DNA from: Geodermatophilus tzadiensis
Lineage (GTDB): Bacteria > Actinomycetota > Actinomycetes > Mycobacteriales > Geodermatophilaceae
Assembly: GCF_003002915.1 (NCBI RefSeq)
Contig: NZ_PVTG01000004.1
Location: 186,001 to 250,000, forward strand
Reading direction: 5' to 3'
DNA: 64,000 nucleotides
Each line of letters opens with the position of its first letter. The stretch's first letter is position 1. The notes under the pieces were generated by a model. That model saw nothing but the letters and a program-made list of their open reading frames with translations. It was not told the DNA's origin and searched no databases. Shown here one piece after another: positions 10,675 through 19,356 of this stretch. Position numbers and translations under genes: made by a program.

Positions 10675-11991
10675 TCACCGGCCGGCGAGGTGGGCGATCG
10701 CGGGGAGGCCGGGCACGAAGCAGTAGGCGCCGCCGCGCGTGGTGACCAGCCGGGGCAGGTCGGTCAGCGCGGTCCGCCCGCCGCCCGGGGTGGCGAGCGG
10801 CAGCGTCCCGCCGGCGCCGAGGAAGGGGTCCTGCGACCGGCCGAGGCCCGGTGCGAAGAGCCCGTCGGTGGCCCACTCGCGCATCACGAACTCGAACTGG
10901 TCGCGGAGGCTCACCCCGATGAACAGCCCGAGCAGGCCCCGCTCCTGCCCGTCCCGCGGGTGCGCGGGGTCGTACGGCGGGCCGTAGGTCAGCCCGCGCC
11001 GGACGATCCGGTGCCGGTGGCCGCCGCCCCCGGCGACGCGCGAGTCCCGCGGGTTCATCCGCCGCACGTGCGAGCCGATCGGGCACCGCTCGCCCCGCGG
11101 GTCGCCGGCGTAGCCGAAGTCGTTGAGGGCATCCGGGGGCAGCGGCGGGTCGGGCGAGCCGGTGTCGGGGGACAGCGCGAGGGGCACCCCGGTGCGCCAG
11201 CGTCCGCACAACCAGGCGGCGACGAGCTCCGGGTCGGCGCCGGTGCGCCGGGACTGCGTGGCGAGCAGTTCGGCGAAGGCGTCGACGTCCTGGGCGAGCA
11301 CCCGGAACGCGGCGAAGCTGCCGTTGCGCCCCAGGGCCTCGGGCTGCGGCACCGGGTAGGTGTGGCCGGGGAACTGGCTGGGGTGGCCGAGCAGGAACGC
11401 CCCCGCCGGTGCCACGGGCAGCCGGTCGGGCGGACCCGGCGGGGGCGCGCCGTCGACCGTGGGCTGGGAGATCCCGTCGACGTAGCCGAAGTGGTCGACC
11501 CGGCCGGCCAGCAGGGCGGCGTCGAGCCGGCAGAGCTCACGCACCCCGGGCGCCGTGCCCGCCAGCAGGCGGTCGGCGGCCCGGTCCACCGCCTCCGGGG
11601 TCCGGCCGAACAGGGAGACGACGAGGTGGAGCCCGGGGTCGCGGAACACCGGCAGCCACCGGGCGGGGGCGCTGGGGCCGACGTCGCCGACCCGCTCGGC
11701 GCGGGCCACGGCTCCTGCGGTGAACTCCCCGGGGAAGGTCGCCAGCGACTCCTCGGACACCCCGAGGGCCCGCAACCCGCCGGCGGTCACCGACAGGTTG
11801 AGGCAGCACTCCGGCTTCTCGGTCCAGGGCGCACCCGTGGTGACCTGCGGGCGGCCGGGGCTGCCGTCGACCAGCGAGCCGAGCAGCCGGCGGCCGGCGG
11901 AGGGCGAGTCCACCTGCAGCAGCAGGTGCCGCGCGTGCGGCATCGCGTAGCCGCGGAGCACGACGCCCTGGACGTCGGCGAGGTCGAGCAC
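10675..11991 (-). CDS. DyP-type haem peroxidase
   Basis: 438 residues. The distal-site GxxDG motif is present as FGYVDGISQP, a His lies before an RRG segment (HRHRIVRRG, probable proximal haem ligand region), and the C-terminal GLFIGVSLRDQFEFVMREW block is typical of larger DyP classes. These enzymes use peroxide to oxidise dyes, phenolics or lignin-like substrates. No signal peptide or Tat motif is seen, so it should be cytosolic. The GTG at 11991 lies 16 bp after the companion gene, which places both in one operon. The usual partner, encapsulin, is not in the window. Confidence 0.83.
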   Translation of the reverse strand: MLDLADVQGVVLRGYAMPHARHLLLQVDSPSAGRRLLGSLVDGSPGRPQVTTGAPWTEKPECCLNLSVTAGGLRALGVSEESLATFPGEFTAGAVARAERVGDVGPSAPARWLPVFRDPGLHLVVSLFGRTPEAVDRAADRLLAGTAPGVRELCRLDAALLAGRVDHFGYVDGISQPTVDGAPPPGPPDRLPVAPAGAFLLGHPSQFPGHTYPVPQPEALGRNGSFAAFRVLAQDVDAFAELLATQSRRTGADPELVAAWLCGRWRTGVPLALSPDTGSPDPPLPPDALNDFGYAGDPRGERCPIGSHVRRMNPRDSRVAGGGGHRHRIVRRGLTYGPPYDPAHPRDGQERGLLGLFIGVSLRDQFEFVMREWATDGLFAPGLGRSQDPFLGAGGTLPLATPGGGRTALTDLPRLVTTRGGAYCFVPGLPAIAHLAGR

Positions 11992-12007: not shown

Positions 12008-12457
12008 TCAGGCGCCGGCGGAGACGATGTCGAGCACCGTCCTCGCCGGGTAGGCGCTGTAGAACGGCGGCACGCACCCCAGGTCGTGGCGGCGTACGTA
12101 GTCGAGGAACTCCTGCCGGTGCTGCTGCACCGGCAGCGGTGGGCCGTCGGCCACGTGCTGGAGCAGGTCGGTGAAGACGTCCCCGACGTGGTCGACGAAG
12201 TCGTGGAGGTAGGCCTCGAAGTCGCCGTCGTAGGTCGTGATCACGGCGAGCCGCTGCTCGTCGAGGAGGACGAAGCGCGCGAAGTGCACGGTGCCGATCG
12301 TGTCGAGCGCCCGGACGACCGGGTTGCGCTCGCGGGGCAGTGCCTGCAGCGCCTCGACCTTCGCCTGCAGCGCCCGGCGGTCGTCGGCGGAGCGCACGGT
12401 CATCACCAGCGTCAGCGGGTGCTGCACCGGGTGGTCGGTGGTCCTCGTGGCGGTCAT
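12008..12457 (-). CDS. DyP-associated conserved protein
   Basis: 149 residues with a GTVHFARFVLLDEQ segment and YDGDFEAYLHDF, a pattern found in proteins encoded next to or fused to DyP-like peroxidases in actinobacteria (from memory). It begins with MTATRTTDHPVQHPL and has no signal peptide or membrane helix. It is the first gene of a two-gene operon with the peroxidase. Its biochemical role is not known to me; it may be a partner or fold-mate of the peroxidase ferredoxin-like domain. Confidence 0.55.
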   Translation of the reverse strand: MTATRTTDHPVQHPLTLVMTVRSADDRRALQAKVEALQALPRERNPVVRALDTIGTVHFARFVLLDEQRLAVITTYDGDFEAYLHDFVDHVGDVFTDLLQHVADGPPLPVQQHRQEFLDYVRRHDLGCVPPFYSAYPARTVLDIVSAGA

Positions 12458-12510
12458 CCCCGGGCTCCCTCGTGTCGTCCCCTCGTCCGCGCCGACCCTG
12501 CGCCAGGGCG

Positions 12511-12527
12511 CGTCACCGGGCCGTCAC
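12511..12527. promoter_or_regulatory. Paired CGTCAC direct repeats, 11-bp spacing (candidate SARP site)
   Basis: CGTCAC at 12511-12516 and again at 12522-12527, exactly 11 bp apart, in the divergent region between the DyP companion gene (minus) and the first SARP gene (plus). It lies 10 bp before the GTATCAGCGG element at 12537. SARP autoregulation or control of the DyP operon is a natural hypothesis. Confidence 0.45.
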
Positions 12528-12536
12528 GCCCCCGCT

Positions 12537-12546
12537 GTATCAGCGG
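12537..12546 (+). promoter_or_regulatory. GTATCAGCGG element upstream of SARP gene 1
   Basis: One of four copies of GTATCA(G/C)CGG in the 12.5-19.4 kb island (others at 15126, 15624 and 19415), plus a shorter fifth match at 17718. It ends 54 bp before the ATG at 12601. It could be a -10 region of an alternative-sigma promoter or an activator site. Confidence 0.45.
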
Positions 12547-12600
12547 CGGCCCGGCCCGCCTCTGCCCGTCGACGTCGCCGTCCCCGAGGGGAGACCGTTC

Positions 12601-13353
12601 ATGGACAGGGTCGCTCGCGCCGTCCCGGACGGCGGGCCGCGGATCACGCTGCTCGACGGGTTCGCCATGCGGACCGGCGGGCCCGCGGACGGGCCGGGGG
12701 AGGAGGAGCTGCCCCCGTCGGTGCAGCGGGTGGTGGCCCACCTGTGCCTGGCCGGATCACCGGCGCGCACGGCCGTGTCCGGTCGGCTGTGGCCCGACGT
12801 GCCCGAGGAGCGGGCCCGGGCCAGCCTGCGGTCGGCGCTGTGGCGGCTGCGCCGGTCGGCTCCGGGCCTGCTCGACGACTCCGGGAGCCGGCTCCGGCTC
12901 GCGCCCGGCGTCCGCACCGACGTGCGCGACCTGCAGGCCTGGGCCGGGCAGGTGGGCGACCCGGCCGCGGCGCCGCCGCGGCTGACGCTGCCCGCGCCGG
13001 CGCTCCTGGGCGACCTGCTCCCCGGCTGGTACGACGACTGGGTCCTGCTGGAGCGCGACCGGCTGCAGCAGGTGCGGCTGCACGCGCTGGAGACCGTGGC
13101 CGCCCGCCTCGGCGCGGTCGGGCGGTACGCCGAGGCGCTGCAGGCCGCGTACCTGGCCATCCGGGCCGAGCCGCTGCGGGAGAGCGCGCACCGCACCGTC
13201 GTGCGGGTGCACCTGGCCGAGGGCAACCTCGCCGAGGCGCTGCGCGCGCACGACGCGTTCGCCTGCCTGCTGCGCGCGGAGCTCGGCGTGGCCCCGACCG
13301 AGCGCATGACCGGCCTGGTCCGCGGCCTCCCGCGGCTGCGGCGGGTCTCGTGA
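12601..13353 (+). CDS. SARP/BTAD-family transcriptional regulator, copy 1
   Basis: 250 residues. An OmpR-like winged-helix N-half (ITLLDGFAMR..., AVSGRLWPDVPEERARASLRSALWRLRR) is followed by a bacterial transcriptional activation domain (LLPGWYDDWVLLERDRLQQVRLHALE... LRESAHRTVVRVHLAEGN). This is the small-SARP architecture without ATPase or TPR extensions; such proteins activate target promoters by binding direct repeats. The ATG at 12601 has GAGGGGAGA upstream. It is the tandem paralogue of the gene at 13475, with long identical stretches such as LLPGWYDDWVLLER. Confidence 0.82.
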   Translation: MDRVARAVPDGGPRITLLDGFAMRTGGPADGPGEEELPPSVQRVVAHLCLAGSPARTAVSGRLWPDVPEERARASLRSALWRLRRSAPGLLDDSGSRLRLAPGVRTDVRDLQAWAGQVGDPAAAPPRLTLPAPALLGDLLPGWYDDWVLLERDRLQQVRLHALETVAARLGAVGRYAEALQAAYLAIRAEPLRESAHRTVVRVHLAEGNLAEALRAHDAFACLLRAELGVAPTERMTGLVRGLPRLRRVS

Positions 13354-13474
13354 GCGGGCGGGGGGTCCCGACGGCGGTCCAGGGTCCAACGACCGTTGCC
13401 CTGCCCGCTGTGCATCGGGACGATGCCGTCGCGTTCCCATCCGCGAGCGCCCGGGAACGGCCGGGGGAGGGGCC

Positions 13475-14263
13475 ATGAGCACGTCCGTGCGGGTCTGCCT
13501 GCTCGACGGCTTCCGCGTCGCGGTGGACGGCGTGGACGCGGGCGGCCTGCCGCGCGGGGTCCAGCGCCTCATCGCCCACCTGGGCCTGTGCGGACGGCCG
13601 GCCCGCGGCCTGGTCGCCGGCCGGCTGTGGCCCGACGTCCCCCAGGCGCAGGCCCAGGCCAGCCTCCGGTCGGCCCTGTGGCGCGTGCAGCGGACCGTGC
13701 CCGGGCTGGTCGACGCGTCCGGGAGCGCGGTGGCGCTGGCCCGCGGCGTGCGGGTCGACGTCCGTGAGCTGCTCGAGGCGGTGCAGGCCGTGCTCGACCC
13801 GGCCACGCCCGTCGAGCACCTCGGCACGCCCACCGCCGCGCTCGCGGGCGAGCTCCTGCCGGGCTGGTACGACGACTGGGTGCTGCTGGAGCGGGAGCGG
13901 CTGCGCCAGCTGCGCCTGCACGCCCTGGAGGTGCTGGCCGACCGGCTGGGAGCGGTCGGGCGCCACGGCGAGGCGGTGCAGGCCGCCTACGCCGCCGCGC
14001 GGGACGAGCCGCTGCGCGAGAGCGCGCACCGGACGATCGTGCGGGTGCACCTCGCAGAGGGGAACCCGACCGAGGCGGTGCGGGCCTACGAGTCCTTCCG
14101 GGAGGTGCTCGCCCAGGAGCTCGGTGTCCCGCCGAGCCGCCAGATGCAGGACCTGGTGTCCCGGTGGCAGGTGCGCGGCGATCCCGGTCGCCGTGTCCCG
14201 GCCGGTGTCCCACGGCCCCGGTCCGCCCCGCCGACGCGCCGGCCGGCGTGCCCGGGGGTCTGA
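13475..14263 (+). CDS. SARP/BTAD-family transcriptional regulator, copy 2
   Basis: 262 residues with the same winged-helix plus BTAD layout as its upstream neighbour (VRVCLLDGFRV..., GRLWPDVPQAQAQASLRSALWRVQR..., LLPGWYDDWVLLERERL, LRESAHRTIVRVHLAEGN). It carries an added Pro/Arg-rich tail after residue 235. GGGGGAGGGG precedes the ATG. Tandem duplication is the simplest origin. The two regulators may form hetero-oligomers or have split targets; nothing in the sequence decides this. Its upstream region has a weaker GTGCATCGGGA at about 13411, related to the GTATCA element. Confidence 0.82.
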   Translation: MSTSVRVCLLDGFRVAVDGVDAGGLPRGVQRLIAHLGLCGRPARGLVAGRLWPDVPQAQAQASLRSALWRVQRTVPGLVDASGSAVALARGVRVDVRELLEAVQAVLDPATPVEHLGTPTAALAGELLPGWYDDWVLLERERLRQLRLHALEVLADRLGAVGRHGEAVQAAYAAARDEPLRESAHRTIVRVHLAEGNPTEAVRAYESFREVLAQELGVPPSRQMQDLVSRWQVRGDPGRRVPAGVPRPRSAPPTRRPACPGV

Positions 14264-15215: not shown

Positions 15216-15611
15216 GTGAGCACCCACGAGAACGGGACGTCGCCGTACCGGCGCGCCCTCGAGGCGGCCCGCGCGCTGGGCCGCGCCGACGGCCGCCTCG
15301 CCGTCGACGTCGAGCCCGACGGGGAGCCCGTGCTGGGCCCGTGGTGCCACGGTCTCGACCCGGAGGGCCTGGCCCACCTGGTCTGGGAGGCGGACGGTGG
15401 GCCGGCACCCGCGGGCGTCGTGCTCAACGCGCCGCTGTGGTACGCGCAGGGCTTCCGTGAGGCCCTGGCCTGCGCCCGCGCCCAGCAGGCAGGTCGGCAC
15501 CTGACCGGCCGCCGTCCCGACCGGACCTGCCGGCCACCGGCCGGCCGGCCGTGCGCGCGGCTGTGCGGCGTGCTGCCCGCGCCCCGGCGGCCGCCCGACG
15601 ACTCCCGCTGA
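15216..15611 (+). CDS. Hypothetical protein with Pro/Arg/Cys-rich tail
   Basis: 131 residues from a GTG at 15216 with TGGAGG upstream. The first 95 residues form a plausible folded region (SPYRRALEAARALGRADGRLAVDVE ... GLDPEGLAHLVWEADGG ... LWYAQGFREALACARAQQ) and the rest is low-complexity Arg/Pro. I do not recognise the family. It is one of the genes preceded by the GTATCAGCGG element, which supports it being real. The next gene begins 78 bp downstream. Confidence 0.5.
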   Translation: MSTHENGTSPYRRALEAARALGRADGRLAVDVEPDGEPVLGPWCHGLDPEGLAHLVWEADGGPAPAGVVLNAPLWYAQGFREALACARAQQAGRHLTGRRPDRTCRPPAGRPCARLCGVLPAPRRPPDDSR

Positions 15612-15689: not shown

Positions 15690-17699
15690 ATGCGCCTGAC
15701 CCGCACCCCTCCGGCGGCCCGGGCGCTCGCCGCCGCCCAGGAGACGAACGCCCGCCTGGGGCACGAGCACCTCGGGCCGCTGTCGGCGCACCGCGGGTTC
15801 CTGCCGACGCGCCCGCCGCTGCTGCGGCTGCCCGACACGCACGCCCCCTGGGACGAGGCGGCGGCCCGGCTGCCGGACCTGTTCCGCGACGTGGCCGTGC
15901 GCGAGGCGCTCGAGGAGCTGCCGGTGCTGCCGGCCGGTCCGGAGGTGCTGCCCGACGCCGCTCTGCAGCGGGCGGCCACGGTGCTCGGGTTGCTCGGCCA
16001 CGCGTACGTGCACAGCCGCGCGCCACAGCGGACGGACCTGCCCGCGGGCGTCGCCGCCCCGTGGGCGCAGGTGCGCCGCCGGCTCGGGCGGTCCGCGGAA
16101 CCGGTGCTGACCTACCCCGACCTCATCGTCCACAACTGGCGGTGGGCCGGCGGGGGCGACGCGGTCCCGCTGCTGTCGGACGACCTCCGGCTGCTGGTGC
16201 CCGTGGCCGGCAACGAGGAGGAGCGCGTCTTCTACCTCACCCAGGTCGAGATCCTGGCGCGCTGCGCGACCGTCGTCCCCGCGGCCGTCGCCGCCCAGCA
16301 GGCCGTGCTCGACGACGACGCCGAGGCGCTCACGGCCGCCCTCGCCAGGGTCACCGCGGCGCTGGAGACGGCGACCCGCCGCTCGCTGACGCTCATCGAC
16401 CCGCGCCCCGGTGCCCGGACCTCCGTCGACCCGGTCGTCTGGGCCAAGACGGTGGCCCCGCTCGCGGTGCCGTCGCGGGCCGGCGTCCTCGGCCCGAGCG
16501 GCACGGCGTCCCCGGTCTTCGGCCTGCTCGACGCGCTCCTCGGCCGCCGCGGGCACGCGAGCCAGCTGGGCCGGGAGATCCTGCTGCAGCGGCGCAGCTC
16601 CCCGCCGCACTGGCGCCGGTTCCTCGACGCCGTCGACGAGGTGCCGGTGCCGGCCTACGTCGCCGCCCGTCCCCGGCCGGACCTGGTCGCCGCCCTCGAC
16701 GCGGCCCGCGAGGCCTACGCGGGACCCGAGGGGTTCCTCGGCCGGCACCGGCGCACGGTGTCCGGCTACCTCGCCGTCGCCTTCCTGGTCGGCCGGGGCG
16801 TCACGATCGGCGGGTTCGCCGGGACCCCCGGCGAGCACACCTGGCACACCGTCGACGCGGCCCTCACCGCGTCCCGCACCGAGCGGCCGGCCCCACCGGA
16901 CGCCCGTCCTCCCCACGCCGGCGCACGTCACCGGGCGGGCGATCGGCGTTCGGTGGCCGACGTCGCCGAGCACAACGACGACGCGCACGGCTGGTGGGTC
17001 GCCGTCGACGGCCGGGTGCACGACGTCACCGGGTTCGTGGGGCGCCACCCCGGCGGGACGGCGGTGCTGCGCGCGCACGCCGGCCTCGACGCCACGGTGG
17101 CCTTCGGCCGCGCGCACCCCGACCGGCCGGCGGTGCGCCGGCTGCTCGCGGCCACCGACGCCGGGCTGCTGGTCCGGCCGGTGCTGACCCGCGCCCGCCC
17201 CCTGTACGAGGCGTGGGGAGCGGCGCTGTCCGGTCTGGTGCAGCTGCAGAACGCGTTCCGGCTGGACCGCTCGTTCGGGCTCGGCACCGAGCTGTGCCGG
17301 CCCGGCGGTGACCGGCCCACCGCACTGCAGGCCGACCGGGCCGCCGACACCGCGGCCCGCTTCGGTGACGAGTACCTGCCGCGGTTCGCCGCCGACGTCC
17401 TCGCGCCGCTGGCCGAGAGCGTGCTGCGGGAGCAGCGGGCGGCGCCGCGGAGGATCCGGGCCGTGCCGGGCCCGCCGCCGGGTGCGCCGCCGGCGCCGGC
17501 CCCGCTGCGGCAGCGGCTGGACCTGCTCGACCGGCGGATCGGTGCCACCAAGGAGCTGCTGGTCGCCGGTGCCCGGGCGTTCGACACGTGGGGCGACGCC
17601 GTCCTCTGCCAGGGCGAGCTGTGGCGCCTCGCCGCCGCCGCGGTCCCGGTCTGCGCGGCCGCGGCGACGGTCGCCGTCTCGGTGCCGCGGGCCGCCTGA
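15690..17699 (+). CDS. Indoleamine 2,3-dioxygenase-like haem protein fused to a cytochrome b5 domain
   Basis: 669 residues. Residues about 20-400 follow the indoleamine 2,3-dioxygenase fold pattern: GFLPTRPPLLRLP, an alpha-domain block (LTYPDLIVHNW), VFGLLDALLG followed by GHASQL, and GRHRRTVSGYL with His353 where human IDO1 has its proximal haem His346. Residues about 420-490 are a cytochrome b5 domain (GWWVAVDGRVHDVTGFVGRHPGG) with axial His453 in HPGG and His476, 23 residues apart. The last 170 residues are unassigned and end in a hydrophobic stretch. IDO enzymes open the indole ring of tryptophan, and cytochrome b5 can reduce IDO haem, so the fusion could supply its own electron donor. 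The Arg equivalent to human Arg231 is not evident by eye, so the substrate may differ (the pyrrolnitrin enzyme PrnB is a non-IDO member of this superfamily). Confidence 0.75.
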   Translation: MRLTRTPPAARALAAAQETNARLGHEHLGPLSAHRGFLPTRPPLLRLPDTHAPWDEAAARLPDLFRDVAVREALEELPVLPAGPEVLPDAALQRAATVLGLLGHAYVHSRAPQRTDLPAGVAAPWAQVRRRLGRSAEPVLTYPDLIVHNWRWAGGGDAVPLLSDDLRLLVPVAGNEEERVFYLTQVEILARCATVVPAAVAAQQAVLDDDAEALTAALARVTAALETATRRSLTLIDPRPGARTSVDPVVWAKTVAPLAVPSRAGVLGPSGTASPVFGLLDALLGRRGHASQLGREILLQRRSSPPHWRRFLDAVDEVPVPAYVAARPRPDLVAALDAAREAYAGPEGFLGRHRRTVSGYLAVAFLVGRGVTIGGFAGTPGEHTWHTVDAALTASRTERPAPPDARPPHAGARHRAGDRRSVADVAEHNDDAHGWWVAVDGRVHDVTGFVGRHPGGTAVLRAHAGLDATVAFGRAHPDRPAVRRLLAATDAGLLVRPVLTRARPLYEAWGAALSGLVQLQNAFRLDRSFGLGTELCRPGGDRPTALQADRAADTAARFGDEYLPRFAADVLAPLAESVLREQRAAPRRIRAVPGPPPGAPPAPAPLRQRLDLLDRRIGATKELLVAGARAFDTWGDAVLCQGELWRLAAAAVPVCAAAATVAVSVPRAA

Positions 17700-18714: not shown

Positions 18715-19356
18715 TCAGGCCACGGCCCCGGCCGGCACCGGTGCGCCGTCGGCGGTATCGACGACGAGGCGCATCGCGGTGACCTCGGGACCCAGGTAGG
18801 GCAGCTCGCTGCCCTCGAGCCAGTCCAGAGGGCTGATGTCGACGTCGGCGTCGAGGTCCTTACAGACGGCGAACGGCTGGACCACCGGCGCGCCCGGGTC
18901 GCGCAGCGAGATGATCAGGTGCCACGGGTAGGCCGGGTTGTGGAGCCGGAAGTCGATGAGCGAGAAGTTCGCCGGCTGCCGCCGGTGGACGTGGAACAGC
19001 GCGACGGGCTCGAGCCCGCAGGACTCCAGCCAGCGGTGCACCGCGAGCTGCTCGGCGGGGTCGGCGACGAAGCCCGCGTCCTCGTGGGCCCGGAAGTAGG
19101 ACCCCTGCGCCTCGAAGGCCGCCCGGGCCCACTCGGCGTTGCGGCAGTTGCGCGTCGGGTCGAAGAACACCACGTCGGTGGCGGTGAAGGGGAAGCGTGG
19201 CGCGTCCGGGTCGGCGACCAGCAGGCCGAAGGCCTTGAGCCCGGCGGCGTGCACGGTGGACACCGTCGTGACGAGCCGGTCGACCAGCGGCCGGGACAGG
19301 TGCAGCTCCGGACGGCCGGTGGGCTCGGGGACGGCGGCGGGGGACGAGGTCGGCAC
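18715..19356 (-). CDS. JAMM/MPN+ (Mov34-PAD1) family metalloprotease-like protein
   Basis: 213 residues. The zinc motif HxH-x7-S-x2-D is complete: HVHRRQPANFSLID, in a segment that begins LEPVALFHVH. A Glu that could complete the site precedes it in the RAHEDAGF region. Prokaryotic JAMM proteins cleave isopeptide or C-terminal bonds of ubiquitin-like or sulfur-carrier proteins (for example Mec+/CysO) but no such partner gene is visible nearby. The product is cytosolic. The GTG at 19356 lies 58 bp after a GTATCAGCGG element, linking it to the island's other genes. Target protein unknown. Confidence 0.7.
   Translation of the reverse strand: MPTSSPAAVPEPTGRPELHLSRPLVDRLVTTVSTVHAAGLKAFGLLVADPDAPRFPFTATDVVFFDPTRNCRNAEWARAAFEAQGSYFRAHEDAGFVADPAEQLAVHRWLESCGLEPVALFHVHRRQPANFSLIDFRLHNPAYPWHLIISLRDPGAPVVQPFAVCKDLDADVDISPLDWLEGSELPYLGPEVTAMRLVVDTADGAPVPAGAVA

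Follow-up and report, generated by a model that had tools for sequence, protein, structure and literature searches.

An IDO-fold haem domain fused to cytochrome b5 in Geodermatophilus tzadiensis, and its reductase-bearing relatives

In the classical view, IDO and TDO catalyse redox-neutral dioxygenation and have to be reactivated only occasionally, and the cellular route of IDO reduction is still under debate. Knowledge of bacterial IDO genes dates back to ocean metagenomes (PMC1821046). In a passage of PMC13142367 that cites Maghzal 2008, Vottero 2006 and Pearson 2010, P450 reductase, with or without cytochrome b5, is described as supporting human IDO1 activity in vitro, and monooxygenase activity is also known for the human enzyme (PMC12921851). 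Two heme-dependent aromatic oxygenases, MarE and PrnB, carry a His-ligated haem of the IDO/TDO type and act on altered substrates. An electron donor pushes MarE, which is TDO-like, toward monooxygenation, and the GTGGS loop affects the outcome (PMC12312684). Cytochrome b5, with an HPGG or HxGG motif and two axial histidines, serves as a covalent one-electron carrier in flavocytochrome b2, sulfite oxidase and Ncb5or. Finally, self-sufficient P450s of the P450 BM3 type and flavohaemoglobin combine a haem domain and an NAD(P)H/FAD reductase within a single polypeptide.

The protein considered here is encoded in a 64,000-nucleotide stretch of Geodermatophilus tzadiensis DNA, referred to below as the window. 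It shares its fold, proximal histidine, helix layout and length (about 390 aa) with IDO1, IDO2 and the canonical bacterial IDOs (PF01231), but differs from them in bearing a fused b5 domain and a C-terminal helical domain (CT), to which most of its relatives add an FAD/NAD(P)H reductase module (FNR). MarE and PrnB, in contrast, are stand-alone domains that lack a built-in b5 or reductase. Among b5-fused enzymes, the family is distinguished by an IDO-fold haem oxygenase as catalytic partner and by a reductase of the CysJ/CPR type (FAD_binding_1) rather than the b5-reductase type. The resemblance to P450 BM3 and flavohaemoglobin is one of working principle, since the haem domain is His-ligated and IDO-folded, with no homology to P450 or globin; compared with P450 BM3, one-electron shuttling falls to b5 instead of an FMN domain. 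According to an initial reading of the DNA, hereafter the first-pass annotation, a bacterial IDO-b5 fusion is not known to have been described, and a search of the open-access literature likewise found neither an IDO-b5 nor an IDO-reductase-b5 protein described. The family is apparently undescribed, although its constituent domains and folds are already known. It places two questions in one protein, namely whether b5 reduces the IDO haem and whether a steady supply of electrons turns the IDO fold into a monooxygenase, and, as a self-sufficient oxygenase whose haem is His-ligated, it would also provide a new chassis.

Domain layout, folds and haem ligands

The gene occupies positions 15690..17699 of the forward strand, on which all of its features lie. 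Its frame is complete, running from an ATG at 15690 to a stop codon at 17697-17699 and encoding 669 aa; starting instead at an in-frame GTG (15657) would lengthen the protein by 11 residues. Residues 1-399 (15690..16886) form the IDO-fold domain, residues 400-418 (16887..16943) a linker, residues 419-497 (16944..17180) a cytochrome b5 domain with HPGG at 453-456, and residues 498-669 (17181..17696) the CT. Pfam-A assigns residues 32-229 to IDO (PF01231; 121.7 bits, cut-off 26, E 4e-35) and residues 422-479 to Cyt-b5 (PF00173; 57.8 bits, cut-off 23.7, E 1.2e-15). A phmmer comparison with the PDB matches residues 12-344 to IDO2/IDO1 (E about 1e-15) and residues 420-483 to cytochrome b5 (E about 1e-9). 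No NCBIfam model matches the protein, and the CT lacks a Pfam family. Profiles built from the family match the window protein at 4e-198 (IDO), 4e-40 (b5) and 8e-59 (CT), values to be read in light of the window protein being among the few sequences that built them.

Structural comparison, set beforehand as the check on the IDO layout proposed for the N-terminal region, returned the two-domain helical IDO fold. Modelled with AlphaFold (mean pLDDT 81), the window protein superposes on human IDO1 in Foldseek with a TM-score of 0.82 by target and an rmsd of 3.7 over about 390 columns, and its top 50 matches are all human IDO1. Searched against the PDB, a profile of the IDO domains of 46 relatives hits IDO2/IDO1 at E about 4e-34, and one built from the b5 domains of 42 relatives hits solved b5 structures at E about 1e-24. 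The b5 part of the window model has low confidence (pLDDT 33-55) because few rows of the alignment, only five, covered it. The b5 fold was consequently examined on a relative from Ktedonospora (L048), whose b5-CT model reaches pLDDT 95; within it, residues 1-84 form a cytochrome b5 that matches 1lr6 with a Z of 15.8 and an rmsd of 0.9. The CT is helical in both models, and in fold searches the match lists from Foldseek and VIA-align were taken up by the b5 part.

The haem ligands named in the first-pass annotation are borne out by conservation. Because MAFFT misplaced b5 in full-length alignments of long with short forms and of b5-CT fragments with the window protein, each domain was aligned separately. 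His353 (codon 16746..16748) is invariant in all 46 aligned IDO domains of the family, and its H-x6-Y/F spacing is shared with the HLEISVSYV motif of the canonical IDO encoded at locus L073. These two features make it the predicted equivalent of the proximal ligand His346 of IDO1, with the qualification that MAFFT alignment with canonical IDOs slides the proximal histidine by 7 residues. Among the b5 domains, the first axial ligand, His453 (17046..17048), is a histidine in 42/42, and the second, His476 (17115..17117), in 40/40 rows with a letter at that column, the other two being gaps.

The wider IDO-FNR-b5-CT family

The first-pass annotation described a natural two-part fusion of IDO to b5. 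Both domains are indeed fused, but comparison with relatives places the protein differently. Three genomes, two from the same order and one from the same taxonomic family, have their IDO and b5 domains in a single open frame with about 400 codons between them, and the intervening segment is an FAD_binding_1 plus NAD_binding_1 reductase. The linker of the window protein marks the place where most relatives carry this module of about 410 aa. The closest named relative of the module is the sulfite reductase flavoprotein CysJ (E 5e-35 to 7e-42), whose FMN domain it lacks. Most long forms retain the FAD and NAD(P)H motifs, R-x-Y-S (56/61), GxGxxPF (57/61) and C-G (56/61). The long form of Herbidospora daliensis, for instance, occupies an open frame of 1,242 codons.

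When the IDO-domain alignment was used to scan 84,980 species genomes, it yielded 66 loci distributed over Actinomycetota, Chloroflexota, Bacteroidota, Cyanobacteriota, Bdellovibrionota, Myxococcota, Pseudomonadota and Poribacteria. The profile matched four of 396 genomes in a sample of phyla, and on plasmids it matched only haloarchaeal IDOs, at 25-29% identity. The homologue search suggested for the IDO-b5-CT architecture recovered it in only five of 70 proteins (four from Geodermatophilus and one from Aquimarina), whereas 61, from at least seven phyla, carry the reductase between IDO and b5 in a single frame. Of these 61 long forms, 34 carry an FHA domain at the N-terminus, five have a long N-terminal extension, which is gamma-glutamyl-cyclotransferase (GGCT)/AIG2-like where scanned (L023 and L083), and 22 show neither feature. 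The IDO domain stands alone or truncated in the remaining four proteins. For one of them, from a Saprospiraceae MAG, the IDO gene is followed immediately by a distinct b5-CT gene, and the locus has no reductase. The two genes of this MAG overlap (L068 8947-10999), and a frameshift in the MAG is possible. One copy, from a gammaproteobacterium, includes a fused saccharopine-dehydrogenase-like enzyme.

The IDO, b5 and CT domains of the window protein are homologous to those of the long forms and stand in identical order, with 37-49% identity over the IDO domain. Judged by this homology, the window protein is a reductase-less form of the larger IDO-FNR-b5-CT architecture, and the family is of more interest than the single fusion first flagged. 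The IDO-domain tree contains two changes of reductase state: a reductase-less Bacteroidota case falls within a group of relatives that have the reductase (support 90, base drawn open), and Geodermatophilus sits on a long stem whose position is unresolved. Reductase loss in Geodermatophilus is likely on this comparative evidence. The CT accompanies b5 throughout the family and is found with it even in the split arrangement of the Saprospiraceae MAG. The earlier suggestion that the C-terminal 170 residues hint at a different substrate is therefore dropped, since a domain that travels with b5 gives no evidence about substrate.

Substrate pocket, electron supply and proposed mechanism

The proposal we favour, at a probability of about one half, is that the window protein would act as a reductant-driven IDO-type oxygenase whose iron is kept reduced by the b5 domain of the same chain and whose substrate is not L-tryptophan. 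The substrate part of this proposal draws on the pocket. At the column of IDO1 Arg231, MAFFT places Ala or Gly in 46/46 family members and phmmer places Pro, so that neither alignment gives a conserved Arg. The absence of an Arg231-like residue had been noticed for the window protein; it holds there, and the family as a whole shares it. In 45/46, Phe stands where the GTGGT loop has Thr379, giving a family motif of G-F-x-G, and the distal loop, past the Arg231 region, has about 13 residues fewer than in IDO. Sequence comparison thus shows that the residues by which IDO holds L-tryptophan are missing from the family. The canonical IDOs encoded beside family members L055 and L073 retain the Arg and a GTSGT loop, and relative to them the family forms a separate deep clade. 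Because the equivalents of Arg231 and Thr379 are missing and the window genome encodes a separate TDO, L-tryptophan dioxygenation by the window protein appears unlikely.

The idea of b5 as a covalent reductant, put forward in the first-pass annotation, is strengthened by the relatives that add an NAD(P)H/FAD module, and for the window protein itself we infer electron transfer from b5 to the IDO haem from domain order. In the long forms, electrons would pass from NAD(P)H to FAD, then to the b5 haem and on to the IDO haem. The b5 domain would keep the IDO iron reduced and would probably feed electrons during turnover. FAD_binding_1 reductases (PF00667) are absent from the window protein, its three full-length congeners and the window genome; b5 reduction in trans is for this reason proposed in Geodermatophilus, presumably by an unlinked flavoreductase such as one of the FAD_binding_6 type, and the window genome encodes several FAD_binding_6/NAD_binding_1 candidates. 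The reduced IDO haem would then bind O2 and oxygenate a substrate other than L-tryptophan. With electrons supplied stoichiometrically by a built-in route, monooxygenation is no less likely than classical dioxygenation; in light of the published findings on human IDO and MarE, the built-in reductase and the altered loop together make it plausible.

A true tryptophan dioxygenase, or one acting on a close indole, in which b5 serves only to re-reduce auto-oxidised haem as proposed for mammalian IDO1, would fit the IDO fold and the description of b5 in the cited passage of PMC13142367 as a known IDO1 reductant. It would also fit two gene contexts. In Chitinophaga solisilvae (L035 12240-17311) the IDO-FNR-b5 gene lies directly upstream of trpE, followed by trpD, trpC and a PALP gene that is likely trpB. 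In Kitasatospora and the cyanobacterium Limnofasciculus, it precedes a canonical IDO gene, which is followed by genes for a saccharopine-dehydrogenase-like protein, a label that is our own reading of what it looks like, and an Amidohydro_3 protein; this order looks like a small shared pathway. The corresponding segments are L055 12336-16298 and L073 3476-7552. Yet essentially all family members lack the Arg and carry Phe for Thr379, the genome already has its TDO, the adjoining canonical IDO would duplicate the same step, and a full reductase exceeds the need of rare reactivation. We regard this dioxygenase role as improbable.

Persistence in Geodermatophilus and gene neighbourhoods

Full-length orthologues occur in G. 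telluris, G. amargosae and G. saharensis (89, 74 and 75% identity), so that the full gene is present in 4/26 Geodermatophilus species. GC3 of the Geodermatophilus copies is 0.94-0.99. Two further genomes retain remnants: G003 keeps only b5-CT (contig C17, 105410-106162, L017), with an in-frame deletion of the IDO domain and HPAE in place of HPGG, and G023 has IDO fragments only (contig C1, 5121773-5122002, L018). These remnants, the missing reductase and the patchy occurrence within the genus would suit a decaying leftover of a self-sufficient enzyme that no longer works as an oxygenase, as would the weaker constraint on b5 and CT (dN/dS 0.3-0.9) than on the IDO part (pairwise 0.25-0.41). Against such decay, the four full-length copies remain free of stops at 11-26% protein divergence and keep all haem ligands, and dN/dS over the IDO part is well below 1. 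Pairwise values are 0.35-0.41 overall and about 0.6-1.2 in the linker. A reductase-less form, fused or split, also exists in two Bacteroidota, so IDO and b5-CT can persist without a reductase. By these measures the gene is real, well beyond what chance would give, and under purifying selection, yet dispensable in the genus; the short form may be in the process of being lost, but that it has already ceased to function as an oxygenase we consider unlikely.

The neighbourhoods of the wider family were clustered with a codon-position filter, since antisense ORFs in high-GC genomes swamped the raw ORFs. They vary by lineage and do not agree on one pathway, but several offer concrete leads to new metabolism, including bacillithiol genes, the trp operon, and the canonical IDO with its amidohydrolase. 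Bacillithiol-type gene clusters accompany the family gene in two Chloroflexi, an actinomycete MAG and a genome of the same taxonomic family as the window (G027). They were observed at L022 6770-7546 and 12626-18268 and also at L026, L027 and L014. At L022, BshA scores 311.6 against an NCBIfam cut-off of 273.7 and BshB1 281.6 against 182.5, and a second PIG-L protein (PIG-L/NPCBM/cNMP-binding, 1015 aa) is present. A conserved protein of about 390 aa in these clusters matches nothing in the libraries searched and, judged by eye, may be a divergent BshC. In Bacteroidota, a gene for a DsbA-like CGWC protein precedes the family gene. Because of the bacillithiol genes, the GGCT fusion, the DsbA-like neighbour and the trp operon, we tentatively suggest, with distinctly less confidence than for the window protein itself, that the family could be a widespread self-sufficient IDO-fold group, the His-ligated equivalent of self-sufficient P450s, performing NAD(P)H-driven monooxygenation in low-molecular-weight-thiol or tryptophan-derived metabolism, of which Geodermatophilus would hold a minimal form that borrows its reductase in trans.

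Other neighbours have a regulatory character. A gene with two CBS domains, REC-fused in some Chloroflexi, lies immediately upstream across much of the family, such CBS or REC-CBS genes being seen in Chloroflexi, Streptosporangiales, Micromonosporales and gammaproteobacteria, and histidine-kinase and PAS/GAF-like genes are close by at some loci. These genes and the FHA domain of 34 of the 70 proteins would suit a redox, O2 or NO sensor in which the haem domain senses and FHA, CBS or REC partners signal, but such a role is doubtful, given that a complete FAD/NAD(P)H reductase implies electron turnover, that the GGCT and saccharopine-dehydrogenase-like fusions and the trp and bacillithiol neighbours point to metabolism, and that the window form lacks FHA, CBS and REC partners.

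Within the window locus, CBS, FHA, REC and reductase parts are all absent. Two adjacent BTAD/SARP-type regulators (12340-14263, forward strand) precede the gene, as they do in congeners, and a gene for an AMIN/peptidoglycan-binding protein also lies upstream. Directly before the gene is a small ORF with a GTG start (15216..15611, forward strand, 131 aa); pairwise alignments with ORFs at L020 and L021 show that an ORF of about 100-130 aa is kept at this place in G. amargosae and G. saharensis, and it is a possible operon partner. On the reverse strand, the window encodes a JAB-like (Prok-JAB) protein at 18715-19356, just at the Pfam cut-off, and a Dyp-type peroxidase-like protein at 10675-11991 (DyP_N just over its cut-off, TIGR01413 under its own), a second haem enzyme nearby.
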